A DNA stretch of 60,287 bases from a bacterium (GCA_017541465.1 JAFXYZ010000027.1:1-60287); one strand, 5' to 3'; positions 12,687 through 57,060 are shown, counted from the first letter of the stretch. Numbers and translations are program-made. The notes: generated from the sequence alone by a model not told the origin.

Positions 12687-12974
12687 ATGAGAATAGATGC
12701 AATAAAAAACTCCTATACTCCGACATTCAGACAGAATAATGCTGTTGTCGCTTATCCTGAATTATCTTACAGAAAGTCACAGATTAACGTCTACGAAACA
12801 GATCCTTTCCAAAACGGTTTAAATTCCATAGTTAAGAAGTTTGAAAAGGCTTACAGATTATTATTCACACCTGAAATAGACAAAAAATCAAGCGACATCA
12901 AAAACAGCATCGATTTAATCATCGATGGGGATAAGGAAGGTAAGTCAGGGGAAAAATTAAACGCAGTTGCGTAA
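12687..12974 (+). CDS. Small 95-aa lineage-type protein with an N-terminal M-x-I...TFRQN motif
   Basis: Starts MRIDAIKNSYTPTFRQN. The opening M-R-I-D-x-I and the short aromatic/basic motif at residues 13-17 resemble the starts of other unknown proteins in this window (27022, 26336 and 27876 leftward). The rest is soluble and helical, with conserved-looking charged segments and no signal or membrane segment. It has its own strong promoter and a ribosome site (AGAGGT). Function unknown. It ends 5 nt before the 3' end of the convergent ABC permease gene. Confidence 0.6.
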   Translation: MRIDAIKNSYTPTFRQNNAVVAYPELSYRKSQINVYETDPFQNGLNSIVKKFEKAYRLLFTPEIDKKSSDIKNSIDLIIDGDKEGKSGEKLNAVA

Positions 12975-24364: not shown

Positions 24365-25720
24365 ATGGAAAACGGAACAAAAGATTTAACACAGGGTAAT
24401 CTCTTAAAAACGCTTTTATTATTTGCGTTTCCGTATATTGTAGCAAATTTTCTTCAGGCACTCTACGGCGCAACGGACATCTTTGTCACAGGTCATTTTT
24501 GCAAAAGCTCAACTGTTTCAGCGGTTGCACTCTCAAGTTACCTTATGCAGACCATTACCTTCCTCTCAACAGGCTTTACAGTCAGCGCAACGATTTTAAT
24601 CGGCAATTACTTCGGTGCAAAAAAATATGACGATATACAGAAAATAATAAATACAACTCTGTATATTTTCACAATATTTTCGCTGATAATGACTTTTCTG
24701 CTTTTATTTTTCGCGAGTGACTTATTATCACTTTTAAAAACTCCCCCTGAAGCCATTGAAGAAGCCATAAGTTATACAAGATACTGCGCCTTCGGAATTA
24801 TATTTATAGTATTTTTCAACCTGATAAGCTCGATTTTAAGAGGAGTTGGGAACTCAACCGCCCCGATGGTATTTGTCGGAATAAGTTCATTTTTAAACCT
24901 CATTTTAAATGTAATATTAATAGGATATTTTAATTTAGGGGCTGTCGGGGCTGCGCTTGCAACAGTCATTTCTCAGGCGGTAAGTGTTACAATCGCGATT
25001 TTATACATAAAAAGAGGAAACTTCGTTTTCAGCATAAAATTCAGACATATAAAATACTATAAAGAAATAGCAATGAGAATTTTTAAGCTCGGACTTCCTT
25101 TATCTCTTCAGGACACTATTATGCCCATATCCTTTATGGTTTTATACACTCTCTCAAATTCAATGGGAGTAGCCGAGTCCGCCGCATACGGTACAATAAC
25201 AAGATTAAATGCTTTTCTGATGCTTCCCGCAGGTTCTTTTGCAATGGCGCTCACTGTTGTAGCGGCACAAAATATGGGGGCACAAAAATTTGACAGAGCA
25301 TATAGAGCCCTCGGGTACTCAATATCCGTCTCATTTTTCTTCGGAATAGTATTCTTTATCTGGCAGCAGGTTATCCCCGAAAGCGCAGTTTCAATCTTCT
25401 CAAAGGATACATCTATTATAGATGCCGGCTCAGATTTCCTTCGTTCCTTCAGTTACGATTACCTTCTGGTTCCGTTCGTATTCTGTCTGCACGGTTTCCT
25501 GAACGGGCTCGGAAGAACAATGTTCAGCTCGGTAAATAACACCATAGGGGCATTTTTAATAAGAATACCGGCAGGTTTTTACTTTGGAACAATGGCAGGT
25601 GCGACACTGTTTAACATCGGTATAGCAGCGCCATTAACCTCCGTCATAACAATTACAAGCGCAGGAATTTATATTCTTGCTTTAAAGAAGAAGAATAAAC
25701 TGTTTTCCACTATGCCTTAA
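24365..25720 (+). CDS. MATE-family efflux transporter
   Basis: A 451-aa inner-membrane exporter with twelve predicted helices in two MatE halves. The first half starts LLKTLLLFAFPYIVANFLQALYG-type sequence, including the residues typical of helix 1 and ATDIFVTGHF. The second half starts MRIFKLGLPLSLQDT. It most resembles DinF/NorM-like Na+ or H+ antiporters; the substrate is not predictable. The start has no good ribosome site; TATATAAT-like boxes lie about 40 nt upstream in the divergent gap to the ankyrin gene. Its end overlaps the convergent gene by 11 nt. Confidence 0.92.
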   Translation: MENGTKDLTQGNLLKTLLLFAFPYIVANFLQALYGATDIFVTGHFCKSSTVSAVALSSYLMQTITFLSTGFTVSATILIGNYFGAKKYDDIQKIINTTLYIFTIFSLIMTFLLLFFASDLLSLLKTPPEAIEEAISYTRYCAFGIIFIVFFNLISSILRGVGNSTAPMVFVGISSFLNLILNVILIGYFNLGAVGAALATVISQAVSVTIAILYIKRGNFVFSIKFRHIKYYKEIAMRIFKLGLPLSLQDTIMPISFMVLYTLSNSMGVAESAAYGTITRLNAFLMLPAGSFAMALTVVAAQNMGAQKFDRAYRALGYSISVSFFFGIVFFIWQQVIPESAVSIFSKDTSIIDAGSDFLRSFSYDYLLVPFVFCLHGFLNGLGRTMFSSVNNTIGAFLIRIPAGFYFGTMAGATLFNIGIAAPLTSVITITSAGIYILALKKKNKLFSTMP

Positions 25721-26336
25721 CGTTTTCAAGTTTAGGGGAAGCGGGAGTAAGGTTTGAAACGTTATTAGCCTGGGGTTTTTGTTCACCTTTTTTTCTGCCC
25801 GTTATCCTGTTTGCGATAGGATTTAAAAGTATAGGACCTATAAATCTGTAGATAGTAGCAAAGACAACAAGTGTCTTTAAGTTCTTCAGACCGTTGAGAG
25901 AATTTTTAAGAACGGTCGGATCCATAGAAGGATTTGCCGCCTTAAAGGTCTTTGAGAAATTATCTATACCTTTATTTACGACATTATCAAGGGTATAAGC
26001 CCCGATAGCAGAGAAGGCGGTAACGAGAGCCTGGTAATAAACCTCTGTTTTCTTCTGCTCCTTGCTGATTTTATCGTTTCTCATAGCGCCGACAACATAG
26101 AAGGTGGAAAGCCATAAACTCTCTGCCGCTATTAAGTGGGGAAGATATTTTTGACTCTTTGCAAGTCCTTTCGTAAGTTTTGCAAAGCCGTTTGTATCAA
26201 CGACTTTAGAAATACCGCCTGCAAGTACATCAGTGAGTTTATTATAGGCATTTGCGCCTAAGCCCTTAAAAGACTGTTGTTTTGAAGGGTTGATAACAGT
26301 TTTGTTAATTTGGGGTGTAAAAGGTGTAATATTCAT
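25710..26336 (-). CDS. Lineage-type unknown membrane-associated protein with SFKGLG motif (paralog B)
   Basis: This 208-aa protein begins MNITPFTPQINK and has SFKGLG at residues 22-27, then hydrophobic helical segments (about 70-90, 105-125 and 155-175: LKTLVVFATIYRFIGPILL). It has a basic, Gln/Asn/Pro-rich C terminus. It shares its layout (M-x-I start, about 20-35 residues, SFKGLG, membrane-like body, polar tail) with the gene directly upstream, so the two look like diverged tandem paralogs. Start and upstream stop share one base (26336). Function unknown. Confidence 0.65.
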   Translation of the reverse strand: MNITPFTPQINKTVINPSKQQSFKGLGANAYNKLTDVLAGGISKVVDTNGFAKLTKGLAKSQKYLPHLIAAESLWLSTFYVVGAMRNDKISKEQKKTEVYYQALVTAFSAIGAYTLDNVVNKGIDNFSKTFKAANPSMDPTVLKNSLNGLKNLKTLVVFATIYRFIGPILLNPIANRITGRKKGEQKPQANNVSNLTPASPKLENVKA

Positions 26337-27022
26337 TAGTTACCCCCTTTCTCAAATTTAGAGGGAGCAGGTAGTTTAGGCTGTTGCACCTCTTGTTGTA
26401 CTTGTTTGGTGTTCTCATTCTTTTGAGCTTCATCCTTATTCTTTCTTATACCGAACATGGCAAGCATAGGAGGAACAAGTGCAACGGTTGCCATGGCCCT
26501 GAGGGGCATAAATACGGGCTGATGAATTCTCTTAGCAAGCTCTTTAAATACTTTTCCGTCTCTGACAGCTAACTGCTCAGCATGTTTTTGGAGATATTTA
26601 AATGAGCCGTCAGGAAGTTTTGTTGTCATTATTTTATCTACAGCATCAGATATAGGGTGAGCGAAACAGACTGTAAACAGAAAACCTAAAGCCCCTGAGG
26701 CTGCTGCGTGAGCTGCTCTAAACTTATTTTTATCCTTTTCGACTTCTGTTTTGGCAGGTGTCATAAGAGTTACTGCCGGTCTTAAAAGACAAGTTATCAA
26801 AAGAGCATACATCGCTTCTATTACGAGTGTATTTTTATTTGAATATAATAATAAATTTTTAAATCCTTTAGATCTTGCTAACTTCTGAGCTATCGCGCCT
26901 TCACCTAAACCCTTGAAGGAGGGAACAGAATTTTGTTTCACATTATTATTTATCGGTACTTCCTTTGGAACTGCCGTTCGTTTGGGGTAGCTGTCGGTTA
27001 GTGTAATCGGGTTAATCTGCAT
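26336..27022 (-). CDS. Lineage-type unknown membrane-associated protein with SFKGLG motif (paralog A)
   Basis: This 228-aa protein begins MQINPITLTDSY and has PSFKGLGEGA at residues 34-43. Hydrophobic segments follow at about 66-85 (VIEAMYALLITCLLRPAVTL), 110-128 (GALGFLFTVCFAHPIS) and 172-192 (RAMATVALVPPMLAMFGI). The C-terminal 30 residues are Lys/Glu/Gln/Pro-rich. First gene of a two-gene unit with the next paralog. No known domain is recognised. The short motif near the N terminus, after a disordered-looking lead, looks like a sorting or docking signal; that is inference. Confidence 0.65.
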   Translation of the reverse strand: MQINPITLTDSYPKRTAVPKEVPINNNVKQNSVPSFKGLGEGAIAQKLARSKGFKNLLLYSNKNTLVIEAMYALLITCLLRPAVTLMTPAKTEVEKDKNKFRAAHAAASGALGFLFTVCFAHPISDAVDKIMTTKLPDGSFKYLQKHAEQLAVRDGKVFKELAKRIHQPVFMPLRAMATVALVPPMLAMFGIRKNKDEAQKNENTKQVQQEVQQPKLPAPSKFEKGGN

Positions 27023-27095
27023 TTCTCTGTTTCCTTATAGTGTTTATATAAAACTTCATTTGAATATTTTTTGCTAGTGTAAAAAAATAATATAT

Positions 27096-27126
27096 AAAAA
27101 AGAAAAAGCACAAACGTGCTTTTTCT
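27096..27126 (-). terminator. Rho-independent terminator after the 77-aa Cys-containing gene
   Basis: A perfect 11-bp stem (AGAAAAAGCAC / GTGCTTTTTCT, 27101-27111 and 27116-27126), 4-nt loop, with a T run on the minus strand after it. It lies 8 nt beyond the stop of the minus-strand gene at 27135. Confidence 0.8.
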
Positions 27127-27134
27127 TCTTCATT

Positions 27135-27368
27135 CTAATTCGTTCCACCGCCTGCTGAGTACATCACACCGAGTCTTGCGCAGTTGTCGCGGTAATTGCT
27201 CTCGGTTTTATCCGGCTCAGACTTCACAAACTTGTCCTGACACTCCGCAGCCTTATTACCTTCTGATTTCTCATTCGGTATCGGCGGTTTTGTCGGACTC
27301 GCCCCTTTGTTGTACGCACAACTTGGAGAAGTGCATATCTGATATCCTGTTATCTGCGGAATATTCAT
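27135..27368 (-). CDS. Small 77-aa Cys-containing unknown protein
   Basis: Starts MNIPQITGYQICTSPSCAYN. Four Cys (about residues 12, 17, 43 and 63) are spread over a polar, Lys/Ser/Pro-rich chain with no membrane segment. CAGGAGAA is a strong ribosome site, a terminator follows, and the gene lies 13 nt after the Glu/Lys-rich gene, so the pair is probably one transcript. The N terminus resembles the 77-aa protein at 56827-57060 (M-x-I-x-x...Cys, G-rich, similar size), but overall similarity is low. Function unknown. Confidence 0.6.
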   Translation of the reverse strand: MNIPQITGYQICTSPSCAYNKGASPTKPPIPNEKSEGNKAAECQDKFVKSEPDKTESNYRDNCARLGVMYSAGGGTN

Positions 27369-27381
27369 TTCGTTCTCCTGT

Positions 27382-27876
27382 CTAATTTACTGAGCCTGCT
27401 GAAGATTTTGCAACAGTTTGTTCGGCATTTGTAACTTCTATATTTTTCTTCTTAAATAAATTTTTGAAGAAATTCTTTACTTTGTCAATTATATTTGTTT
27501 TTTTCTTTACATTTTCATCGTCTGAAGGTTTCTGTTCCGCATTTTCAGGAGCCTGAGGAATTTCATCCTTTACTTCTTCTTTTACTTCTTCAGTTTCTTT
27601 GACTTCGGCTTCCGGTTCAGGTTTTTCTTCTGCGATAACTTCTTCTTTAACCTCTTCAGCTTTAACTTCTTCAGGCTTAACCGCGGGAGTTTTCACAAAA
27701 GTATCGTCTGATTTAACTTCAGGCTTAACTTCTTTATCAGCTGATGGTACAAAAGAATCCTTCTGAGGCTGCATCGCTAATTGTGCGAACTGTGAATTAT
27801 CAGACTTTGGCATATCCTGTTTGGCTAAAAACTGTGCCATAAAATCGTTGTTAGAATTAATATTGTCAATTTTCAT
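27382..27876 (-). CDS. Glu/Lys-rich low-complexity protein
   Basis: This 164-aa protein starts MKIDNINSNNDFMAQFLAKQ. Residues 45-125 are built of EVK, EEV and KPE repeats and are probably disordered. A short basic amphipathic helix follows (about 130-146: IIDKVKNFFKNLFKKK), which could bind membrane or nucleic acid. The ending is AGSVN. The M-K-I-D-x-I start matches the other lineage-type unknown genes nearby. Divergent from the GGDEF gene. No function can be assigned. Confidence 0.6.
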   Translation of the reverse strand: MKIDNINSNNDFMAQFLAKQDMPKSDNSQFAQLAMQPQKDSFVPSADKEVKPEVKSDDTFVKTPAVKPEEVKAEEVKEEVIAEEKPEPEAEVKETEEVKEEVKDEIPQAPENAEQKPSDDENVKKKTNIIDKVKNFFKNLFKKKNIEVTNAEQTVAKSSAGSVN

Positions 27877-46661: not shown

Positions 46662-47357
46662 ATGTCTATAAAAGGTGAAATAGTATTTAATGAAAATCCG
46701 GTTATGTACCCTATCCGTGCCATGCAGACACAAACCGAACTGCTTGCTATTACAAACGAAAACATAAACGGCTTTGACAAAATAGGCTATCAAGCAAAAA
46801 GACCTGTTGTTTCATCTTTTGCGGAATTTTTAGGCCCGAAAGCCATTTCAACGACTATTGACGACTCGGTCGGAAGAATAGGTGCTACGGGAAATCCTTT
46901 GGATATTGCCTTAGGGGAAAAAGGATATTTTCAGATACAGACACCAAACGGAATACAACTTTCAAGAGACGGCAGATTAAAATATACAAAAGAGGGTGAA
47001 CTTCAGAACCTTGAAGGTTATCCCATACTTTCAAACAACGGTGATAAGATAATTCTTCCGCTTCTTCCCGAAACCATTGACGATTTAAAGATAGATTTAG
47101 ACGGAAGAGTGAGTGTCCTTGACAGAACACAAAAGAAATTTATCTTCGCGGGAACGATAGGCGCTTTCACGCAGGAGGGTGTCGGCCTGTTGCATCCTAA
47201 AATAACCCAGGGGTATATTGAATCCTCGAATGTTGATATAACCTCAGAATTTATTCAGGCAACACCATATATGAAAAACTTCAAGTTAAACAGACAGATG
47301 TATACAATGGTAAACACAAGCATGAGAAACGTCATCTCATCACTCGGACAGGTATAG
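46662..47357 (+). CDS. Flagellar basal-body rod protein, FlgF/FlgG family (first copy)
   Basis: This 231-aa rod/hook-family protein has the N-terminal axial helix (MYPIRAMQTQTELLAITNEN, then IN-G-DKIGYQAKR), a central domain with PLDIALGEKGYFQIQTPNG (about 82-100) and the SRDGRLKYTKEGELQN segment. The C-terminal axial helix is SSNVDITSEFIQATPYMKNF...MYTMVNTSMRNV. These are marks of FlgF/FlgG/FlgE. The length suits FlgF. The Asn-rich N-terminal signature (NIANxxTxGY in the family) is altered to ENINGFDKIGY. First gene of the flagellar operon, with AAGGGAAAA upstream. Confidence 0.8.
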   Translation: MSIKGEIVFNENPVMYPIRAMQTQTELLAITNENINGFDKIGYQAKRPVVSSFAEFLGPKAISTTIDDSVGRIGATGNPLDIALGEKGYFQIQTPNGIQLSRDGRLKYTKEGELQNLEGYPILSNNGDKIILPLLPETIDDLKIDLDGRVSVLDRTQKKFIFAGTIGAFTQEGVGLLHPKITQGYIESSNVDITSEFIQATPYMKNFKLNRQMYTMVNTSMRNVISSLGQV

Positions 47358-47368
47358 GAGAATAAATA

Positions 47369-48085
47369 ATGTCCCGCTCATTCCAAGGAATAATAACAAA
47401 AGGAATAATTAACTCAGAGCTTCAGTTTGAAAAACTCGCATATGTATCCACAAACGTTGCAAATATGAACACAACCGGATATAAAGGAGTTAAATTTGAG
47501 CAAATGTTAAATGACCAGGGATATTTAACAGGAGTTGTAAGAAGAGATTATACCCAGGGCGACCTTTTGAGAACAGGTGATGACTTTGATGTTGCGGTGG
47601 AGGGTGAAGGCTTTATTCCGATAACCTCGCCAAACGGTGAAGTCTGCTACTCAAGAGAGGGTAAATTTAAACTTGATAAAGACGGGTATTTAATTACGCT
47701 TGACGGCTATTTAGTCGGTGACGGAATACAGCTTCCGACAAACTATGATAACCTCAGAATAAAACAAAACGGGGATGTTGAAGTTTATACAAACGACAGA
47801 TCTCATGTTGAGGTGCTCGGAAATATTCCCGTTGTAACCTTCCCTAACCAGGCAGAACTCAGAGCAGGTGATAATAATAAATTCTATATTACAGAGGGTT
47901 CAGGCGAGCCTATGCTCAAAAAAGACGGAAAGAAACTCGTTCAGGGATCACAGGAGGGCTCTAACGTAAATATGTTTGACAGTGTTAACGAGGTTATGAG
48001 ACTGAATGCTTCAATCACGGCAAGTATCAGAGTTATGACGACTGTTAACGAAATGTATAATCAGATAATAAGTATGAATCAGTAA
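47369..48085 (+). CDS. Flagellar basal-body rod protein, FlgF/FlgG family (second copy)
   Basis: A 238-aa protein with AYVSTNVANMNTTGYKGVKF (the canonical NxANxxTxGYK start), FDVAVEGEGFIPITSPNGE and SREGKFKLDKDGYLITLDGYLV. The C-terminal helix starts SNVNMFDSVNEVMRLNASITA. Either FlgG or FlgF; family membership is firm, the exact name is not, since both copies are close to 235 aa and shorter than typical FlgG (about 260). The two genes are 11 nt apart and together probably form the distal rod. Confidence 0.85.
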   Translation: MSRSFQGIITKGIINSELQFEKLAYVSTNVANMNTTGYKGVKFEQMLNDQGYLTGVVRRDYTQGDLLRTGDDFDVAVEGEGFIPITSPNGEVCYSREGKFKLDKDGYLITLDGYLVGDGIQLPTNYDNLRIKQNGDVEVYTNDRSHVEVLGNIPVVTFPNQAELRAGDNNKFYITEGSGEPMLKKDGKKLVQGSQEGSNVNMFDSVNEVMRLNASITASIRVMTTVNEMYNQIISMNQ

Positions 48086-48095
48086 GGAGTAGAAA

Positions 48096-48443
48096 ATGTA
48101 TAATCCGATAGATTCAATAGACGGCGGAACAAGACTTTTAGGGCTTATAGCGGCAAGACAGAAAATGCTTTCCAGCAATATCTCAAATATGGATACTCCG
48201 GGATATACCAGGCAGGATATCTCCTTCAGCCAGTTTTTAGCACCCGAAGTCAGCCCGCTCGAAACTAAATTATCACAGAAAATGGGTACAAAAAACATCT
48301 GGTCGGAGTTCAGCAATGAAAAGGTTGATGTAGGTAAAGAGCTTGCGGAAATGCAGAAGAACTACCTGACTTATACCTTAGCGACAAGAAAAGTCAGTTC
48401 AACAATAACGCAGATGAGAACAGCTATTAATATGGGGCAGTAA
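48096..48443 (+). CDS. flgB: Flagellar basal-body rod protein FlgB
   Basis: A 115-aa proximal rod protein. N-terminal AARQKMLSSNISNMDTPGYTRQDISF and C-terminal KVDVGKELAEMQKNYLTYTLATRKVSSTITQMRTAIN match FlgB. It is a little shorter than the usual 125-140 aa. Rod subunits are exported through the flagellar export gate. 10 nt after the previous gene and 3 nt before flgC. Confidence 0.9.
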   Translation: MYNPIDSIDGGTRLLGLIAARQKMLSSNISNMDTPGYTRQDISFSQFLAPEVSPLETKLSQKMGTKNIWSEFSNEKVDVGKELAEMQKNYLTYTLATRKVSSTITQMRTAINMGQ

Positions 48444-48446
48444 TAA

Positions 48447-48887
48447 ATGGGAATATATGATTCAATGAACATCGGGGCGAGCGCAATGAGCGTTCACGCA
48501 AAAAGATTAGCCATAAGCTCAATGAATATGGCAAATATAGACACCCCGAACTATATAAGAAAAATTCCGATGATAGCATCCACTCAGAATGCTTCATTTC
48601 TGAGCATACTGGATTCAATGAGAACGCCCATGGCACCGGGGGCTATGCCTTATGCTACAGGCGGTGTTGCTTTTACGGGAATAGTTGAAGATCCTACATT
48701 AGGCGAAAAAATATATAAACCGGGGCATCCTGATGCGGATGAAAACGGATATATAAGAACTTCCAACGTAAATCCGCTTGTTGAAATGTCGGATGCAACG
48801 ATGTCACAAAGAGCCTATGAAGCAAGCATCGCGATAGTTTCGATTAGTAAGGCAATGGCGGAAAAAGCGGTAAGTATGGGACAATAA
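48447..48887 (+). CDS. flgC: Flagellar basal-body rod protein FlgC
   Basis: A 146-aa proximal rod protein: GASAMSVHAKRLAISSMNMANIDTPNYIRK at the start, the FlgC-specific YKPGHPDADENGYIRTSNVNPLVEM in the middle and SQRAYEASIAIVSISKAMAEKAVSMGQ at the end. Length and order after flgB are standard. Confidence 0.93.
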   Translation: MGIYDSMNIGASAMSVHAKRLAISSMNMANIDTPNYIRKIPMIASTQNASFLSILDSMRTPMAPGAMPYATGGVAFTGIVEDPTLGEKIYKPGHPDADENGYIRTSNVNPLVEMSDATMSQRAYEASIAIVSISKAMAEKAVSMGQ

Positions 48888-48904
48888 TAACAGGCAGGGG
48901 ATAA

Positions 48905-49555
48905 ATGTTTTCAGGTAAGATACAGGGATTAATAAATTCATCAAGCGAAGCAAATGCAGCAAAAAGGGCTGAACAGTTAAATCAGTACGTTGAAAATCTC
49001 AATAAGGTTGCAAATAAAGAAATTCAGCAGGAGGACTATTTCAAGGAAATTCTGAAGTCCTCTGAGGGTGTTGCTTCAAAATTCAAGCTTTCTCAACCCT
49101 TCGTCAATACACCTATTATGACGGAGGCACAGGAGGAGGTTGAAGAATATTTGGGAAATTCAGATATTAAACCGACAAAAAACCAGATACTTGATTTAGT
49201 TTCAAAAATTTCGGAAAAATATGATATGGATGAAGACCTGGTCAATGCCGTAATAAGACAGGAATCAGGTTTTAAAACCGATGCGGTATCCTCCGCAGGA
49301 GCCCAGGGACTTATGCAGTTAATGCCTCAGACGGCAAAGGCTCTCGGGGTAAAGGATGCTTTTAATCCCGTTCAGAATATAGAAGGCGGAGTAAAGTATC
49401 TTAAAAATATGATGGACAAATATAACGGAAATGTAATTCTGGCACTTGCAGCCTATAATGCAGGCCCGGGAAATGTTGATAAATATAACGGAGTTCCCCC
49501 GTTTAAAGAAACTCAGAATTACGTAAAAAACATTTTGGCAAACTATCTTAAATAG
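48905..49555 (+). CDS. Lytic transglycosylase (SLT domain) in the flagellar operon
   Basis: This 216-aa protein has an N-terminal helical region (1-95) and an SLT/GEWL domain (about 100-216). The catalytic Glu is in VNAVIRQESGFKTDAVSSAGAQG-type sequence, followed by LMQLMPQTAKALGV, NIEGGVKYLKNMMDKYNGN and LALAAYNAGPGNVDKY. It should cut glycan strands so the rod can cross the cell wall, replacing the muramidase part of FlgJ. No signal peptide is seen, so it may leave through the flagellar export apparatus; that is inference. Between flgC and fliE. Confidence 0.88.
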   Translation: MFSGKIQGLINSSSEANAAKRAEQLNQYVENLNKVANKEIQQEDYFKEILKSSEGVASKFKLSQPFVNTPIMTEAQEEVEEYLGNSDIKPTKNQILDLVSKISEKYDMDEDLVNAVIRQESGFKTDAVSSAGAQGLMQLMPQTAKALGVKDAFNPVQNIEGGVKYLKNMMDKYNGNVILALAAYNAGPGNVDKYNGVPPFKETQNYVKNILANYLK

Positions 49556-49566
49556 AGGAGAAGGTC

Positions 49567-49899
49567 ATGAACAACTTTATACCAAGCGTAAATATGTTTT
49601 CACAGATAAATCAGGCAAAATACTTTGATACGTTAAACGGACCGTTTAAACTTGATGCCATAAGCGAAACCCCGAATACCTCATTTAAAGATGTACTCGC
49701 CGGAATGGTAAGTAATGTTAACGAAGAGATACAAAAACCTGACGAACTTCTGACCTCACACATGAACGGAAACAGCGACGTTGATGTTCATGATGTTATC
49801 ACTGCCATCTCTAAAGCTGAGCTGGGAGTAAGTTTGGCGACACAGGTAACCTCAAAAGTCGTAAGTGCATATAACACTGTAATTCAAATAAGTGTATAA
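49567..49899 (+). CDS. fliE: Flagellar hook-basal body protein FliE
   Basis: This 110-aa protein joins the MS ring to the rod. The C-terminal SDVDVHDVITAISKAELGVSLATQVTSKVVSAYNTVIQISV follows the FliE pattern (D.H.vm.A..KA...l....vRnk...AY.eI..M.V), and TSFKDVLAGMVSNVNE is the usual central helix. Position after flgBC supports the call. AGAGGAGAAGG is the ribosome site. Confidence 0.87.
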   Translation: MNNFIPSVNMFSQINQAKYFDTLNGPFKLDAISETPNTSFKDVLAGMVSNVNEEIQKPDELLTSHMNGNSDVDVHDVITAISKAELGVSLATQVTSKVVSAYNTVIQISV

Positions 49900-49938
49900 A
49901 ATTTGTCCTATATACTTACCCTCTGATAAAAAAAATAG

Positions 49939-49944
49939 TATAAT
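49939..49944 (+). promoter_or_regulatory. Possible internal promoter -10 before fliF
   Basis: TATAAT in the 79-nt gap between fliE and fliF. An AGAGGAG stretch (49957-49963) lies 15 nt before the assigned ATG, so the fliF start is not certain. Confidence 0.3.
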
Positions 49945-49978
49945 TACATGATTATAAGAGGAGATAATAAGATTAGGG

Positions 49979-51640
49979 ATGCAAAAACTCCAGGAATTAT
50001 TACAGAATAAAAATGTTTTATACGGGCTCATAGGCGCGGTTGTACTGATTATAATACTTATAATCAGTCTTGCCGTATTCGGGCCTAAAGGAAGTTCTCA
50101 GTCGGAAGAAGCCGGAAACAAGCCTATTGAAGCGGATGTTAATTTATTAACAACGGATAATCTCGGAAAAGCACTTGAGGTTCAGGCACTTTTGGCAAGA
50201 TACGGTATTACTGCCGTAAGAGAAATGGATGGTACGAAATCAAAAATCGTACTGAAGGCAAAAGATAAAATCAAACAGAGCCAGAGAGACCAGGCGCTTC
50301 TGGTTATTGTTCAGAGCGGTCTGATGGACCAATATACAGGGCTTGAGATATTTGATAAAGGTGATTTTACATCAACAAAAGAGGATAAGAGAATAAGACT
50401 TGTAAGAGCCATAAATGGTGAGCTTTCAAGACTGATAAGAAAAATTCCTCCGATAGAAAATGCTTCTGTTTTTGTTTCAATACCCGAGCAGACAATGTTT
50501 ACTGCGGACAGAAAGCCTGTTACGGCAACTGTTCAGCTGGTTGTTCCGAGCGGAATAAGACTTGAACAGTCCAAAATTAAAGCTGTTGAAAACCTTTTAC
50601 TGGGAAGTGTTTCAGGGCTTACCTCAGATTATATTTCAATAACGGACACTAACGGAAATGTTTATTCAAGTTTAATCAACGCACTTGATGACCAGATTGC
50701 AAAACTTCAGGAAAATGACAGTTATATGCAAAATAAGGTCAGTGCGCAGTTAGACAGACTTATAGGAAAAGGAAACTATGTTGTAACAGTCAGCACCTTC
50801 CTGCGCCAGGCACCTACAGAGACGACAAGAATTGAATACGATCCGAATTCAAAAACGGCACTCTCTGAGCAAACCTTCCAGGAGGGGCTGGGTGATACAC
50901 AGAAGGATGCAAACAGCGGTTCGGGTGCGGTCAGTGTTTATGTACCTGAAGGTGTTCCGACCTCTTCATCTTCTTCCTCTCAAGACAGAAAATATACAAG
51001 GTCAGCTCAGGAAACACAGTACGGGGTTTCTAAATCGCAGACAAGCGAATACTTTAAGCAGGGAATTATTGAAGATATAACGATAGCGGTAACACTTGAT
51101 GCAGCCGCAATGCCGTCAAATCTGAGTGAAGATGAACTTAAAAATATCATAGCAAGAGCCGCTTCGCCGAAAGTCAGCGCAGACAATGTTTCTATCGCAT
51201 ACTCAGAGTCTATTCAGCCCTATCTTGCAGGGGATAAAGCGGTTAATCTTCCCAAACCCGATGAATCGGGAAATCCCTGGTGGGTTGCAATTGTTCTTCT
51301 CATAGGCGGTTTAATCTTCGGATTTATCTTTGTTTCGAGAAGATTAAGAGCAACCTCACAGAGACAGAAAGAAGAACTTGATCAGTTAAGAGAAAAGACA
51401 GAGGCGCAGGATAAACAGATTATGGACGTAAACCTGAAGGCAGCAGAACTGACGGAAAAGCAGGATATTATCTCTCAGCAGTTAATCGAGCAGTCAAACA
51501 GACGCCAGCTGGAAAAGAGAAATTCTGATTTAGCGACAGCGCAAATAAATGAAACTCTTGAAGATATTTCGGATGATATTGCGTTCAGCGATGAAGCAGA
51601 AACGATAGAAAAGATTAAAAACTGGATAGAAAAATCATAA
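49979..51640 (+). CDS. fliF: Flagellar MS-ring protein FliF
   Basis: A 553-aa inner-membrane ring protein. Helix 1 is at about 12-37. The periplasmic ring-building motifs include VNLLTTDNLGKALEVQALLARYGI, GELSRLIRKIPPIENASVFVSIPEQ, VTATVQLVVPSGIRLEQSKIKAVENLL and GLTSDYISITDTNGNV. Helix 2 is at about 427-446 (WWVAIVLLIGGLIFGFIFVS). The cytoplasmic tail (about 450-553), which in other bacteria binds FliG, ends DEAETIEKIKNWIEKS. AGGG lies directly next to the ATG, so its ribosome site is unusual. Confidence 0.92.
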   Translation: MQKLQELLQNKNVLYGLIGAVVLIIILIISLAVFGPKGSSQSEEAGNKPIEADVNLLTTDNLGKALEVQALLARYGITAVREMDGTKSKIVLKAKDKIKQSQRDQALLVIVQSGLMDQYTGLEIFDKGDFTSTKEDKRIRLVRAINGELSRLIRKIPPIENASVFVSIPEQTMFTADRKPVTATVQLVVPSGIRLEQSKIKAVENLLLGSVSGLTSDYISITDTNGNVYSSLINALDDQIAKLQENDSYMQNKVSAQLDRLIGKGNYVVTVSTFLRQAPTETTRIEYDPNSKTALSEQTFQEGLGDTQKDANSGSGAVSVYVPEGVPTSSSSSSQDRKYTRSAQETQYGVSKSQTSEYFKQGIIEDITIAVTLDAAAMPSNLSEDELKNIIARAASPKVSADNVSIAYSESIQPYLAGDKAVNLPKPDESGNPWWVAIVLLIGGLIFGFIFVSRRLRATSQRQKEELDQLREKTEAQDKQIMDVNLKAAELTEKQDIISQQLIEQSNRRQLEKRNSDLATAQINETLEDISDDIAFSDEAETIEKIKNWIEKS

Positions 51641-51657
51641 CAAACAGGGAGTGAAAA

Positions 51658-52617
51658 TTGGCAATAGCAGGATTTAACTATAAAGAACTTGCTGCGGAAC
51701 TGGCAAAACAAGCAGTAGCGCTTGTGCCTGAAGACATCCCTATGCCCGAAAAAAAATATATTATCACTCTTATAAACAATTTCTGCATAATTTCGGGAAA
51801 ATCTTTGAATGATGATCCGAATATTAAATTTGATGCTTCACAGGCAACTATCATCACACAGTTTATCGGAGAATGGGCTTTTCATAAGTCAATAGACTTA
51901 ATCAGAGGGGGAATACCTCCTCAGTTAAGAGATCCGATAATGCAAAAACTTGCCTTTGCTATATTTGAGGAGGCAAAACTTGCACTGATTAAGAAACTCC
52001 CCGATGAACAGGTAGTTAATCTTGTTGAGAACAAAGTAAACCAGGTATTTGGTGCTGAAATTCAGGGTTATGTTCAGAAGGGTGCAATAACTCCCGAGCA
52101 GGCTCAGAACGTACTTCAGCAGTCTAATATTGACTCAATGGCACAAAAAGAGAATGAAGTTGTTGCCAAATTTTCAAACAAAAAAATTCTCAAACTCGTT
52201 GCAATGGCAATGATATTAAAGAAAATGCCCCAGGAAAAGGTCAAAGCGATTTTAGACAGCCTTGATCCTCACGATGTGAAATTTATCATCGACCACATGA
52301 AGGTTGAAAATCTTGAAAATAAAATCGATAAATCAATCGTCTTAGAATCCTTATATGACATAAGAAGAGAACTTCCCGAGCCCAAAGAAATCAATGTTGA
52401 AAAGGTTATGAGGAAGTTAAACAGGGCGGTTTCTCTTTCAAAACCGCAGGTTATAGAAGCCGTAATAAAACAGGAAAGGTCAAACGTCAAAAACTTTATC
52501 TATGACCAAAAGTTTCCGACACTCTCTGTTTTCACCCCGAGTATGCTCCAGATTATATCAGATTATCTTGAAGAAAAATTAAATGATTATAAAGAAAAAC
52601 CAAGCGAAAATAAATAA
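51658..52617 (+). CDS. Unrecognised protein in the fliG position
   Basis: This 319-aa cytosolic, mostly helical protein lies between fliF and fliH, exactly where fliG normally is and of similar length (FliG is about 330 aa). I cannot find the FliG signatures (the middle-domain EHPQTIA, or the charged torque helix of the C domain). Segments such as KKMPQEKVKAILDSLDPHDVKFIIDHM and PEPKEINVEKVMRKLNRA have the look of ARM-type helical repeats, which fits a diverged FliG, but this is inference. The start is TTG with GGGAG upstream. The 3' end overlaps fliH by 35 nt, so it is tightly coupled to the export genes. Confidence 0.6.
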   Translation: MAIAGFNYKELAAELAKQAVALVPEDIPMPEKKYIITLINNFCIISGKSLNDDPNIKFDASQATIITQFIGEWAFHKSIDLIRGGIPPQLRDPIMQKLAFAIFEEAKLALIKKLPDEQVVNLVENKVNQVFGAEIQGYVQKGAITPEQAQNVLQQSNIDSMAQKENEVVAKFSNKKILKLVAMAMILKKMPQEKVKAILDSLDPHDVKFIIDHMKVENLENKIDKSIVLESLYDIRRELPEPKEINVEKVMRKLNRAVSLSKPQVIEAVIKQERSNVKNFIYDQKFPTLSVFTPSMLQIISDYLEEKLNDYKEKPSENK

Positions 52618-53311
52618 AAACATTAAGGTTGAGCCTAAGCAGCCGAGCGCGAGCCCGGAAATTGATTCTGTTCAAAACCAGACTGAAGATGAATTAGAAT
52701 TAGAGCAGGATATAAAAGAGGTAACACTTGAGCAGATAGCCTTTGAACAGAGAGAAGAAAGAAGAGAAGGCTCAAGAAGAAGGGGTTACCGCAGAACAAA
52801 CGACCGAATGATTTTGACAAGAGCCCAGGAGGAGGCGGTCAAAATTAAAAACGATGCCTGGAGCGAAGGGTATCAAAAGGGTATTGAAGAGGCTCAAAAC
52901 CAGCTTTCTGCACTGAATAAATCAATAGAAGAATATTTTAACTATAAAGGTGTTGTTGTTGATGCAATTTCGCAGAGTGTATATGATATAGCCCTTGAAA
53001 TTGCGCAAAAAATACTTAAAAAAGAAATAGCTTCAGACGACAGCGCAATGCTCAATATGATAAAAGATATTTTATCTGATATAAACAGACACGAGAGCAG
53101 AATAACGCTCAAGGTCAGACCTGATGATGTAAACGGGATAAAGAAGCACTTTGATGAGCTTTTCCCCGAAGGGTTATTTGATGCGAAAGTTTCTGTTTTG
53201 GCAGATAAGACAATACAGGAGGGCGGTGTAATCGTCGAAACGTCAAACGGAATAGTAGATGCAAGGCTCGAAACCCAGCTCGAAATTCTGAAAAATGCGT
53301 TTAAAACTTAA
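52583..53311 (+). CDS. fliH: Flagellar export ATPase regulator FliH
   Basis: This 242-aa protein has an acidic then Arg-rich N-terminal region (about 25-75, with REERREGSRRRGYRR). A helical part with A-x-x-EGYQKGIEEAQNQ (the Gly-spaced FliH-type helix) is followed by the C-terminal V-ATPase E/FliH domain: AISQSVYDIALEIAQKILKKEI, RITLKVRPDDV, VSVLADKTIQEGGVIVETSNGIVDA. It should bind FliI and anchor it at the export gate. Overlaps the preceding gene by 35 nt. Confidence 0.88.
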   Translation: MIIKKNQAKINKNIKVEPKQPSASPEIDSVQNQTEDELELEQDIKEVTLEQIAFEQREERREGSRRRGYRRTNDRMILTRAQEEAVKIKNDAWSEGYQKGIEEAQNQLSALNKSIEEYFNYKGVVVDAISQSVYDIALEIAQKILKKEIASDDSAMLNMIKDILSDINRHESRITLKVRPDDVNGIKKHFDELFPEGLFDAKVSVLADKTIQEGGVIVETSNGIVDARLETQLEILKNAFKT

Positions 53312-53328
53312 AGGGTATAAAAGGGATA

Positions 53329-55425
53329 GTGGCAAGTTCAGAGAATAAAAGTGTTTTATTTGAAGTATCACTGGCAATATTTATCATATTGCTTATTTTG
53401 ATATTGCTTTTGGAAATGCCGACCTGGGTAATCAACTGCTCCATCAGTTTTAATATAGCCCTCGGAATAACCCTTATGATGATAGCGATTTATGTCCAAA
53501 GACCGCTCGAGCTTTCTGCATTTCCTTCAATTATCCTTATCGGAACCTTGTTCAGACTGGTTTTGAGTATTGCTTCAACAAGACTTATTCTGGCAAGAGG
53601 TGACGCGGGTGAAGTCGTTAAAGCATTCGGCGAGTTCGTTACCGGAGGTAACCTAATTGTCGGTTTTGTAATATTTTTGATTATTACCATCGTTCAGTTT
53701 TTGGTTATCACAAAAGGTTCAGAACGTATTGCAGAGGTTGCGGCGAGGTTCGCACTCGATGCTATGCCCGGAAAACAGATGACAATTGACGCAGACTTCA
53801 ATGCAGGCTTAATTTCACCTGAAGAAGCGGTTAAGAGAAGAGAGGATTTACAGAGAGAATCAAACCTCTACGGTTCAATGGATGGTGCGATGAAGTTCGT
53901 CAAAGGTGATACTTTGGCGGGTATCATCATCGTTATAATTAATATTGTAGGCGGTTTGGCGGTAGGTATTCTGCAACAGGGAATGCCTGCAGGCGATGCG
54001 GTTACAAAATATACGGTATTGACGGTTGGTGACGGTTTGGCATCTCAATTACCTTCACTTTTGATGTCTATCTCAGCAGGTATCGTAATGACACGTTCAA
54101 CAGCGGCAAGCCCTTCGTTAGGTCGTGACTTAGCGAACCAGTTATTGAATAAACCTTACAGCTTGTTCGGAGCAGGGATATTCTTATTCCTTATCGCCTG
54201 TACGTCTGGATTTACGGGATTACCGTTCTTTCCATTCTTTATTTATTCAATTTTGCTTGGAATTGCAGGGATGTCAATTCTCGTAAACCAGGATGTTCAG
54301 TCGCAATTAGGACAGATTGAAAACGTTAAAAGAAATATGCAGGACCTTGTTAATCCAAACAGAATGTATGAAAGACTAGGTGTTGATGTACTTTCACTTC
54401 AGGTCGGCTCAGCACTTCTTGTAATTGCCGATCCTGAGCAGGAGGGTTTGCTTCTTCCGAAAATTGCGGCATTAAGACAGAGAATAACGGATACTTTAGG
54501 TTATATTATCCCGAACATAAGAATTATGGACTCTTCGGCACTGGAACCGAATGAATATATCATTTCAGTCAGAGGAAACACAGTAGCGTCAGGGTATATT
54601 TACCCCGGGAAAGTCATGGTTATCGCTGACCAGTGGGATTCAACGGGAGCAGATGTTCCAAAAGATGCTATTATCGGTGTTGATCCTACATATCAGACAC
54701 AGGCATACTGGCTGAACCCCAAGACCATTCCGACTGGGATAAAGGTTGCACCTGTTGAATGTATAGACGTTATAATCACTCACCTTCAGGACTGCGTAAG
54801 AAAATACGTTGATGAAATTATGACAAAGACTGATGTTCTGAAGTTAATTGAGCTTGTTAAAAGCCAGGATCCTACACTGGTCAATGACCTCGTTCCTGCG
54901 ATTATCTCAACGAGCGACCTCAGAAAGATTTTTGTAAACTTAATCAGGGAAAAGGTTTCCATAAGAGATATTATGTTTATTTTTGAAAGACTTTGCGATT
55001 ATGCAAGATTTTCAAAAGAGCCCGATATCCTCTCTGAGAGGTTAAGAACGGCACTCGGCAGGCAGATTTGTCTTGCGAATATAACGCCGGATAAGGTTTT
55101 ATATGCACTGACACTATCCTCCGAATGGGAAAAGACACTCGATGACAGTTGCCAGAGAACAGAGCTCGGCACAATGTTTTTGTTAAATCCCTTACAGGTT
55201 CAGGAATTGATAGAATCTGCGGTTTCAACCTTAATTAAGGCAAGACAGAATATATCGGTACAGCCCGTAATACTTTGCTCACCTAGAATAAGACTTCCTT
55301 TATATCAATTACTCGAAAGACACATCCCGACTATTGTTGTTATTTCATACTCGGAACTTATAACTGATGTGAGAGTCGAGGCGGTTGATACAATAGGGGA
55401 ATCAATTAATTATAATTTCGGATAA
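53329..55425 (+). CDS. flhA: Flagellar export gate protein FlhA
   Basis: A 698-aa integral membrane protein. About eight helices fill residues 1-320, with conserved FPSIILIGTLFRLVLSIAST, RGDAGEVVKAFGEFV, IVQFLVITKGSERIAEVAARF (with the FHIPEP-type loop ALDAMPGKQM) and DADFNAGLISPEEAVKRR. The large C-terminal cytoplasmic domain (about 330-698) docks export substrates and chaperones. The start codon is GTG with AAAGGGAT upstream. The partner gate genes flhB and fliPQR are not in the window. Confidence 0.96.
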   Translation: MASSENKSVLFEVSLAIFIILLILILLLEMPTWVINCSISFNIALGITLMMIAIYVQRPLELSAFPSIILIGTLFRLVLSIASTRLILARGDAGEVVKAFGEFVTGGNLIVGFVIFLIITIVQFLVITKGSERIAEVAARFALDAMPGKQMTIDADFNAGLISPEEAVKRREDLQRESNLYGSMDGAMKFVKGDTLAGIIIVIINIVGGLAVGILQQGMPAGDAVTKYTVLTVGDGLASQLPSLLMSISAGIVMTRSTAASPSLGRDLANQLLNKPYSLFGAGIFLFLIACTSGFTGLPFFPFFIYSILLGIAGMSILVNQDVQSQLGQIENVKRNMQDLVNPNRMYERLGVDVLSLQVGSALLVIADPEQEGLLLPKIAALRQRITDTLGYIIPNIRIMDSSALEPNEYIISVRGNTVASGYIYPGKVMVIADQWDSTGADVPKDAIIGVDPTYQTQAYWLNPKTIPTGIKVAPVECIDVIITHLQDCVRKYVDEIMTKTDVLKLIELVKSQDPTLVNDLVPAIISTSDLRKIFVNLIREKVSIRDIMFIFERLCDYARFSKEPDILSERLRTALGRQICLANITPDKVLYALTLSSEWEKTLDDSCQRTELGTMFLLNPLQVQELIESAVSTLIKARQNISVQPVILCSPRIRLPLYQLLERHIPTIVVISYSELITDVRVEAVDTIGESINYNFG

Positions 55426-55435
55426 ATAAAAGAAA

Positions 55436-56788
55436 ATGTATTTAGACCAGAACATAGAAAAATCAATAGAGTTTATGAAACGGCGCGCCAATGAAATCAT
55501 TGACACGACACATCTTTATCACTACAAGGGCTCTGTTACAAAACTTGTCGGACTGACGGTTGATGTCCAGCTGCCGGGACTTAAACTCGGTGATTTATGT
55601 TTTATTGAAACCTCGGAAGGTGAAAAGAAGGCTGCTGAGGTCGTTGCGTTTAAAGGTGATGTTGCCCAGCTTCTACTTCTCTATGACGGCGCGGGGATAG
55701 GGCAGGGAAGTCTCGTTCAGACAACCGGAAAGCCGATTAAAATTCCTGTCGGTGATTTCCTGCTCGGAAGAATAATTAATCCGTTAGGAGAACCCATAGA
55801 CGGCAAACCGCTTGATACAACAGGCGCGCAGTGGATGAATATTGACAATGATCCTCCTCAGGCATTTGAAAGACCGATTATTAATACAATTTTTGCAACG
55901 GGAGTAAGGGCGATAGACGGAACACTGACACTCGGGGCAGGTCAAAGAATGGGGCTGTTTGCAGGCTCAGGTGTAGGTAAATCAACGATGCTCGGTATGA
56001 TAGCGAGGAACTCGGATGCTGATATAAACGTTGTTGCGCTCATCGGAGAGCGAGGCAGAGAGGTTAAAGAGTTTATTGAGGACTCTCTCGGGGAAGAGGG
56101 TATGGCAAAATCAGTCGTTGTCTGCTCAACGGGAGACCAGCCGCCTTTAATCCGTATGAAGTGCCTGCATAGTGCAACTGCGGTTTGTGAATACTTCAGA
56201 GACCAGGGGAAAAAAGTTTTCCTTATGACAGATACCGTAACCCGTTGTGCAATGGCAGGAAGAGAGGTCGGACTGTCTATCGGCGAACCACCTACTATAA
56301 AAGGGTATCCGCCTTCAATTTTTTCCTGGCTTCAGAGGGTTTTGGAGCGAAGCGGAAACAGTCCGAGGGGTTCAATTACCGCGCTTTATACCGTCTTAAT
56401 GGAAGGCGATGACGTAAACGATCCCGTTGTTGATACCGTAAGAGGTATTGTTGACGGACACATCTTCCTCTCGAGAAAAATTGCAGAGATGAACCACTAC
56501 CCCGCTATTGATATTCTCGGGAGCATAAGCCGTCTGATGAGCGCAATAGCAAGTGAAGAGCATAAAGAAGCGGCTTCTAAGATCAGGAAAATTATGGCGC
56601 TCTACAGAGAAAACAAAGATCTTATTGATGTCGGTATGTATAACCCGGGTTCAAACCCCAGGCTTGATACCGCAATAGAGCTTATGCCTCAGATTAACGC
56701 GTTTTTACAGCAGAGAACCTCTGATATTGTTCAGTTCGATAACACGATTGAAACTATGATGAATATTGTAAGAGATGTTGATATATAA
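55436..56788 (+). CDS. fliI: Flagellar export ATPase FliI
   Basis: This 450-aa F1-beta-like ATPase energises substrate unloading for flagellar export. Walker A is FAGSGVGKST (about 178-187), then IGERGREVKEFIED, VFLMTDTVTRCAMAGREVGL (Walker B region) and GEPPTIKGYPPSIF. The C-terminal helical domain ends MMNIVRDVDI. The gap after flhA is 10 nt. It is the last gene of the operon, closed by the hairpin at 56787-56816. Confidence 0.96.
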   Translation: MYLDQNIEKSIEFMKRRANEIIDTTHLYHYKGSVTKLVGLTVDVQLPGLKLGDLCFIETSEGEKKAAEVVAFKGDVAQLLLLYDGAGIGQGSLVQTTGKPIKIPVGDFLLGRIINPLGEPIDGKPLDTTGAQWMNIDNDPPQAFERPIINTIFATGVRAIDGTLTLGAGQRMGLFAGSGVGKSTMLGMIARNSDADINVVALIGERGREVKEFIEDSLGEEGMAKSVVVCSTGDQPPLIRMKCLHSATAVCEYFRDQGKKVFLMTDTVTRCAMAGREVGLSIGEPPTIKGYPPSIFSWLQRVLERSGNSPRGSITALYTVLMEGDDVNDPVVDTVRGIVDGHIFLSRKIAEMNHYPAIDILGSISRLMSAIASEEHKEAASKIRKIMALYRENKDLIDVGMYNPGSNPRLDTAIELMPQINAFLQQRTSDIVQFDNTIETMMNIVRDVDI

Positions 56789-56826: not shown

Positions 56827-57060
56827 TTAGCCCATCCATTCGTGGCTGTTAATTTTTCTCTTGTAGTATTCTTCGGGTGACTCAACCTTAGAGGCTTGTG
56901 TGTGTTTAATTTGTTCTATTGCCTGTTCTCTTTTTAATAATTCGGTGAGCGGAGTGAAATAGCAGTCGTCTCCGCCGTATCTTGACCAGACACCTGGCTC
57001 TCCGCCGGGACCTTTTTCAAGACAGTATTTTTTCTGAATAGCGGGGGTAATATTAATCAT
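56827..57060 (-). CDS. Small 77-aa unknown protein
   Basis: Starts MINITPAIQKKYCLEKGPGG, with two Cys (13 and 33), a Gly-rich first half (GPGGEPGVWSRYGGDDC) and a helical second half (LTELLKREQAIEQIKHTQ) ending NSHEWMG. No signal or membrane segment. The M-x-I-x-x-A start and size recall the other small unknown proteins of this window. It has its own terminator; AGGAG lies upstream of the ATG. Function unknown. It sits between the flagellar operon and feoB. Confidence 0.55.
   Translation of the reverse strand: MINITPAIQKKYCLEKGPGGEPGVWSRYGGDDCYFTPLTELLKREQAIEQIKHTQASKVESPEEYYKRKINSHEWMG

Follow-up and report, generated by a model that had tools for sequence, protein, structure and literature searches.

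The window, i.e. the whole 60,287-nucleotide stretch GCA_017541465.1 JAFXYZ010000027.1:1-60287, comes from a member of Candidatus Gastranaerophilales and carries two adjacent genes, q1 and q2, whose products both display an SFKG box close to their N-terminus. Gastranaerophilales are non-photosynthetic gut relatives of cyanobacteria and form a common, mostly uncultured gut lineage. An earlier note on this DNA had assembled six window proteins into one set on account of their openings (M-x-I or M-x-x-I followed by a polar lead) and had suggested that a common lead on unrelated bodies may represent a sorting or docking signal. These proteins (lengths in amino acids, aa) and the two boxes are listed below, "leaded" designating proteins with both start and box.

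12687-12974, plus strand: 95-aa protein with an M-x-I start and TPTFR; doubtful member, box position without Gly
25710-26336, minus strand: q2, 208 aa, leaded; second gene of the pair
26262-26273, minus strand: SFKG box of q2 (residues 22-25)
26336-27022, minus strand: q1, 228 aa, leaded; opens a conserved gene pair; body helical, containing hydrophobic segments and assigned to no Pfam family
26909-26920, minus strand: SFKG box of q1 (residues 35-38)
27135-27368, minus strand: 77-aa Cys-containing protein that has the M-x-I start alone; box absent, excluded from membership
27382-27876, minus strand: 164-aa Glu/Lys-rich protein; M-x-I start present, SFxG box absent; excluded from membership
56827-57060, minus strand: 77-aa protein with just an M-x-x-I start, encoded directly downstream of a type III secretion system (T3SS) ATPase gene; box absent, excluded from membership

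SFKGLG was confirmed in open frames of the minus strand at residues 35-40 of q1 and 22-27 of q2. The set of six was too wide, since the other four proteins are devoid of the S-F-x-G box: those at 12687-12974 (TPTFRQN) and 27382-27876 (KDSFVPSA) open with M-x-I and have a polar lead, while those at 27135-27368 and 56827-57060 have nothing in common beyond an M-x-I-type start. Likewise, the statement that the bodies are unrelated holds genome-wide but not for q1 and q2 themselves, which are a conserved gene pair and are fused in several genera. A structure prediction of q1 alone was too poor to use (mean predicted local distance difference test score, pLDDT, of 46).

Definition and range of the lead

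The source genome amounts to 2.1 Mb in 74 contigs. Enrichment was examined in 722 kb of the rest of this genome (40 stretches) together with the window and one more 20-kb stretch, i.e. approximately 37% of the genome and 854 open reading frames (ORFs), which were called by script with starts chosen by a simple rule; residues 4-60 were compared with later residues. SFKG occurred nine times in residues 4-60 (0.186 per 1000 aa) versus twice later (0.011 per 1000, p=3.2e-5), or seven versus two times when both window matches were left aside (p about 5e-4, hand calculation). The relaxed form SF[KSTGR][GAS] was found 33 times in residues 4-60 and 35 times later (p=5.6e-7). A clear relationship was observed between box and start: 22 of the 144 ORFs with an M-x-I or M-I start were box carriers, versus 12/710 among the others (p=2e-10). 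The N-terminal enrichment on which the earlier note had staked its proposal is thus present genome-wide, the pattern put forward there, [PST]-x-F-[KR]-G, giving a weaker signal than SFKG. Replacement of the box Phe by L, Y or I abolished N-terminal enrichment. The 32 carriers examined for codon usage displayed 32 different codon sets, indicating that selection acts on the protein and ruling out a DNA- or codon-level motif.

Conservation among homologues followed the same line. The box was kept in 35 of 42 distinct q2 leads and in 33 of 37 distinct q1 leads with scrambled spacers, while shuffled leads of q1/q2 homologues contained it in 6.0 and 6.9 cases on average and never in more than 14. 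In the genera where q1 and q2 are joined into a single protein, one box near the N-terminus is accompanied by up to three others in the linker, i.e. up to four altogether. These internal copies speak against a strictly N-terminal sorting signal, and docking accommodates them better than a one-off address at the N-terminus would. The q1-q2 proteins also displayed FKGG-like tails; C-terminal FKG tails were dismissed as a general rule, because they are not enriched genome-wide and are a trait of the q1 family.

The consensus lead reads M-x-I-x-x-I (I, V or L at position 6), a polar spacer rich in Asn, Pro, Gln, Ser and Lys, and the box [VIL]-S-F-[KST]-[GS]. For a logo, 104 carriers from throughout the order were taken, their bodies falling into 62 clusters. 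A hydrophobic residue occupied position 3 in 69% of clusters, a position partly pre-selected since start and box were partly search criteria, and position 6, less affected by this, in 48%. The box displayed [VIL] in 61%, followed by S/N/A/T, F, K/S/T/G and G/S/A, and then by weakly hydrophobic positions. Given these search criteria, the new information resides in Ile at position 6, the hydrophobic residue before Ser and S, K/S/T and G as favoured residues. The spacer was enriched in N, P, Q, S and K and depleted in L, A and E, and the box Phe was located anywhere in residues 5-41 in the core set of the source genome. As in short linear motifs, the box is short, is kept while its flanks diverge and lies in stretches of unrelated proteins that look disordered, as judged from composition. 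A literature search of partial coverage yielded no paper describing such a motif.

The q2 profile had matches in 115 genomes, all of them Gastranaerophilales, and none in other orders of the class. A DNA pattern scan (M[KN]I, then 8-18 codons later S-F-[codons ANN]-G) of 194 genomes of the class gave 498 matches versus 180 for the control in the 115 genomes of the order, and 203 versus 153 in the 79 genomes from elsewhere in the class. At least 23 of about 104 matches listed from the order, and 0 of 46 among those listed from other orders, were M[KN]I...[STCR]FxG openings in frame and free of stop codons. In stretches sampled from the other orders, M-x-I start and box were not linked, and 20 Cyanobacteriia stretches displayed no box enrichment. 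Judging from these sequences, the box recurs across the order Gastranaerophilales and not in the other orders of its class or in Cyanobacteriia.

Carrier proteins

Most carriers matched no Pfam family. Those that did in the source genome were RtcB, a DSHCT/Ski2-type helicase, FHA, PGM/PMM and GGDEF proteins, to which relatives added an amidohydrolase, a uridine kinase, an alpha-amylase-family enzyme and HEAT repeats; two membrane families were also encountered among the bodies. The lead is best appreciated as an addition in two enzymes. The leaded RtcB is a second RtcB with an N-terminal add-on of about 28 residues, unleaded copies beginning directly at the catalytic domain, and the leaded PGM/PMM is some 53 residues longer than its outgroup homologue. 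A relative of the leaded RtcB, 57% identical, occurs in a Candidatus Gastranaerophilales bacterium. When four leaded RtcBs were compared (three of them 54-60% identical to that of the source genome), their leads were unrelated and the position of the box was the same, the box being SFRG in the source genome and SFKG, SFGN and AFNG in the three relatives. A model of the leaded RtcB built from three sequences was too poor to use (mean pLDDT 40).

Downstream of the leaded RtcB, a homologous small protein with an M-I start (155/173 aa) was recorded in two genomes (L040:16392-18122, L213:5989-7730); the one of the source genome has its own VSFG box. In another leaded protein (L037:18472-19383), a hydrophobic segment and LLSGC come after an SFSG box; together they may form a lipoprotein signal, whose n-region would be unusually long.

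A separate type of N-terminal peculiarity was noted in about 19 type IV pilin-like proteins found in a third of the source genome (e.g. L041:16421-17218, L024:1755-2525, L008:211-945, L024:16950-17846). Most of their prepilin leaders contain a conserved TPPY/TPPH and, in several, TPPY is separated from the cleavage site by an in-frame copy of a dispersed repeat of about 60 bp (89-95% identical). These leaders resemble hot spots of small repeat insertions.

The flagellar-type secretion cluster and the FlhA-C-only protein

A flagellar-type T3SS cluster was located in the same window, at positions 46662-56788:

46662-48887, plus strand: four rod-type genes (two FlgF/FlgG-like, one FlgB-like, one FlgC-like)
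48905-49555, plus strand: SLT transglycosylase
49567-49899, plus strand: FliE-like (PF02049, 7e-17), with its own N-terminus M-N-N-F-I ... TSFKD
49979-51640, plus strand: FliF/YscJ-like ring protein
52583-53311, plus strand: FliH-like
53329-55425, plus strand: FlhA/SctV (FHIPEP), the order-wide class 2 copy, also found in genomes without flagellin
55436-56788, plus strand: T3SS/flagellar ATPase (FliI/SctN)

Flagellin (PF00669) had no match in the source genome and was matched in 37 of the 59 genomes searched; flagellar-class FlhA (about 870 bits) was not found in the source genome either. Class-2 FlhA (about 715-730 bits) was present in nearly all relatives searched, flagellate or not, and flagellate relatives displayed a second, flagellar FlhA besides it. 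Genome G106, where class-2 FlhA gave no match, was considered as a natural T3SS knock-out and discarded because the T3SS ATPase is present.

Besides these, the order contains a FHIPEP protein of about 490-500 aa composed of the FlhA cytosolic domain (FlhA-C) behind an unrelated N-terminal part of about 140 aa. Nearly every genome of the order has this FlhA-C-only protein, and it is hardly ever met elsewhere, one genus beyond the order (g116: G192, G213) having similar fragments. Its range is that of the box itself, and its gene adjoins q1/q2 paralogues in the source genome (G000, contig C22:5019-6044) and in G031 (L117:16755-18212). Range and neighbourhood make it a candidate partner of the box, although co-occurrence is not proof. 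A further FHIPEP-like protein of about 600 aa, matching FlhA in pieces, was noticed in one genus (g13; G012:C9:81080-82147, G114:C3:13748-14383, G123:C8:86748-87836).

The gate recognition motif of early flagellar substrates is F-x-x-x-hydrophobic. Early flagellar substrates combine a hydrophobic N-terminus with a gate motif placed at least 19-30 residues after the start (PMC8983047). Like such flagellar and type III export signals, the lead is a two-part N-terminal signal with small hydrophobic residues at positions 3-7 (at the frequencies given above), a Phe-containing second part and a free, unfolded spacer, and a T3SS occurs in the same cell. Unlike them, its second part is S-F-x-G, often too near the start (Phe at residue 18 or before in 10 of 22 cases) and internally repeated in fused q1-q2; the residue at +4 was one of LIVMF in just 39%.

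Docking, export and other explanations

The explanation retained as a whole, a docking motif with the T3SS as its proposed partner, is given a probability of roughly 0.42. The lead would consist of the extreme N-terminus (M-x-I-x-x-[IVL]) and the box, with a polar, disordered-looking spacer of no fixed length between them. Many separate grafts would have placed the box on enzymes and accessory proteins, and the fused q1-q2 membrane-type proteins bear several copies of it. The box would bind a shared partner, and carriers would be brought to, perhaps even exported by, a non-flagellar T3SS, the standalone FlhA-C-domain protein being the likeliest receptor. The components of this scheme differ in firmness. 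It is probable, on the evidence of sequence comparison, that the lead acts as a short linear motif peculiar to the order and docks its carriers to a common partner; N-terminal enrichment, unrelated bodies, lineage restriction and conservation within scrambled leads all agree with the behaviour that the earlier note had proposed, and its interpretation is in this sense partly supported. It is a tentative proposal that this partner is the order's conserved non-flagellar T3SS platform and that the FlhA-C-only protein serves as the receptor. The full picture, in which an order-wide non-flagellar T3SS with a dedicated standalone FlhA-C receptor uses the M-x-I...SFxG lead as an address label by which accessory enzymes and membrane proteins, dozens of them in all, are fed to it, is rather doubtful.

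Several observations weigh against this explanation. The early Phe of 10 of the 22 carriers breaks the 19-30 residue spacing of early flagellar substrates, the internal boxes of fused q1-q2 would be superfluous in an N-terminal export signal, and several carrier bodies contain hydrophobic segments, which are unusual in T3SS cargo. Class-2 FlhA occurs without the box in other orders of the class, and the adjacency of the FlhA-C-only gene and q1/q2 paralogues was recorded in two genera only. Finally, a same-family sample beyond the source genome, taken in 20-kb pieces, displayed weak enrichment (p about 0.02-0.05), so that the order-wide claim rests on homologue leads and on the pattern scan.

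Taken further, the T3SS link would make the lead a genuine N-terminal export signal and the carriers effectors leaving via the non-flagellar T3SS. Its composition, its disordered look and the hydrophobic positions 3 and 6, where Ile matches the hydrophobic signal of early flagellar substrates (PMC8983047), speak for this, the bodies are accessory rather than core, and unleaded paralogues exist for the leaded RtcB and PGM/PMM. Metabolic enzymes secreted by the T3SS of Chlamydia provide a precedent, among them CT295, a phosphoglucomutase that gained a type III secretion signal, (PMC9251005); here too, one of the housekeeping-type enzymes with a putative secretion lead is a PGM/PMM. Yet, the consulted part of that paper mentions no shared linear box, and secretion was assayed there, the present proteins being export candidates. 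With the broken spacing, the internal copies and the membrane-type bodies, actual export of the carriers appears unlikely. Type III signals seldom have a strictly conserved linear box, and this too was counted against it. Docking could also take place inside the cell, at a hub unrelated to secretion, e.g. a membrane or polar scaffold that the multi-box q1-q2 proteins might organise, where RtcB, PGM, GGDEF and helicase carriers would be gathered. This is a possibility to be reckoned with, given the cytosolic-type bodies, the q1-q2 proteins with their multiple linker boxes and FKGG-like tails, and the very short distance between start and box in some carriers; however, no other order-specific hub was found. 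As a universal hub or receptor q1/q2 are themselves unlikely, since the box is also enriched in families f2-f4, where few q1 genes were detected.

Primitive-plastid transit peptides offer a further resemblance, being N-terminal and disordered, with one essential Phe, unrelated bodies and cyanobacterial kin; they differ by serving organellar import and by having no Gly box. Encapsulation peptides of bacterial microcompartments (BMCs) are mostly amphipathic helices, unlike the polar, disordered-looking lead of Gastranaerophilales. Like the lead, they are short tags that gather unrelated enzymes at one place (PMC7221423, PMC12108088). BMC targeting was ruled out since shell proteins (PF00936) were found in 0 of 59 genomes with positive controls, which also removes one kind of intracellular hub. 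A structural role, e.g. as a first beta strand or a latch packing on its own body, is suggested by the short members MRINNISFTGNLYL and MDNISFSGRILF, in which the box leads directly into an alternating hydrophobic, strand-like stretch; it is improbable for bodies of so many families, with spacers of variable length and with RtcB and PGM/PMM domains occurring without the box. Chance or composition, or a DNA or mRNA feature near start codons, is hardly credible: leads rich in Asn, Ser and Lys increase the odds of S-F-K, but the shuffled leads (at most 14 of 42 versus 35 observed), the codon sets and the residue swaps all contradict it.

Whatever its exact function, the box groups many "hypothetical" proteins of a gut lineage and predicts that they share a partner. 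If this partner is something other than a T3SS, the box would still be a bait for finding it. Should it be what is left of a flagellar-type T3SS, the flagellar genes of which these bacteria are reported to have partial sets (PMC5877343) would encode a functional apparatus with a cargo list of its own.

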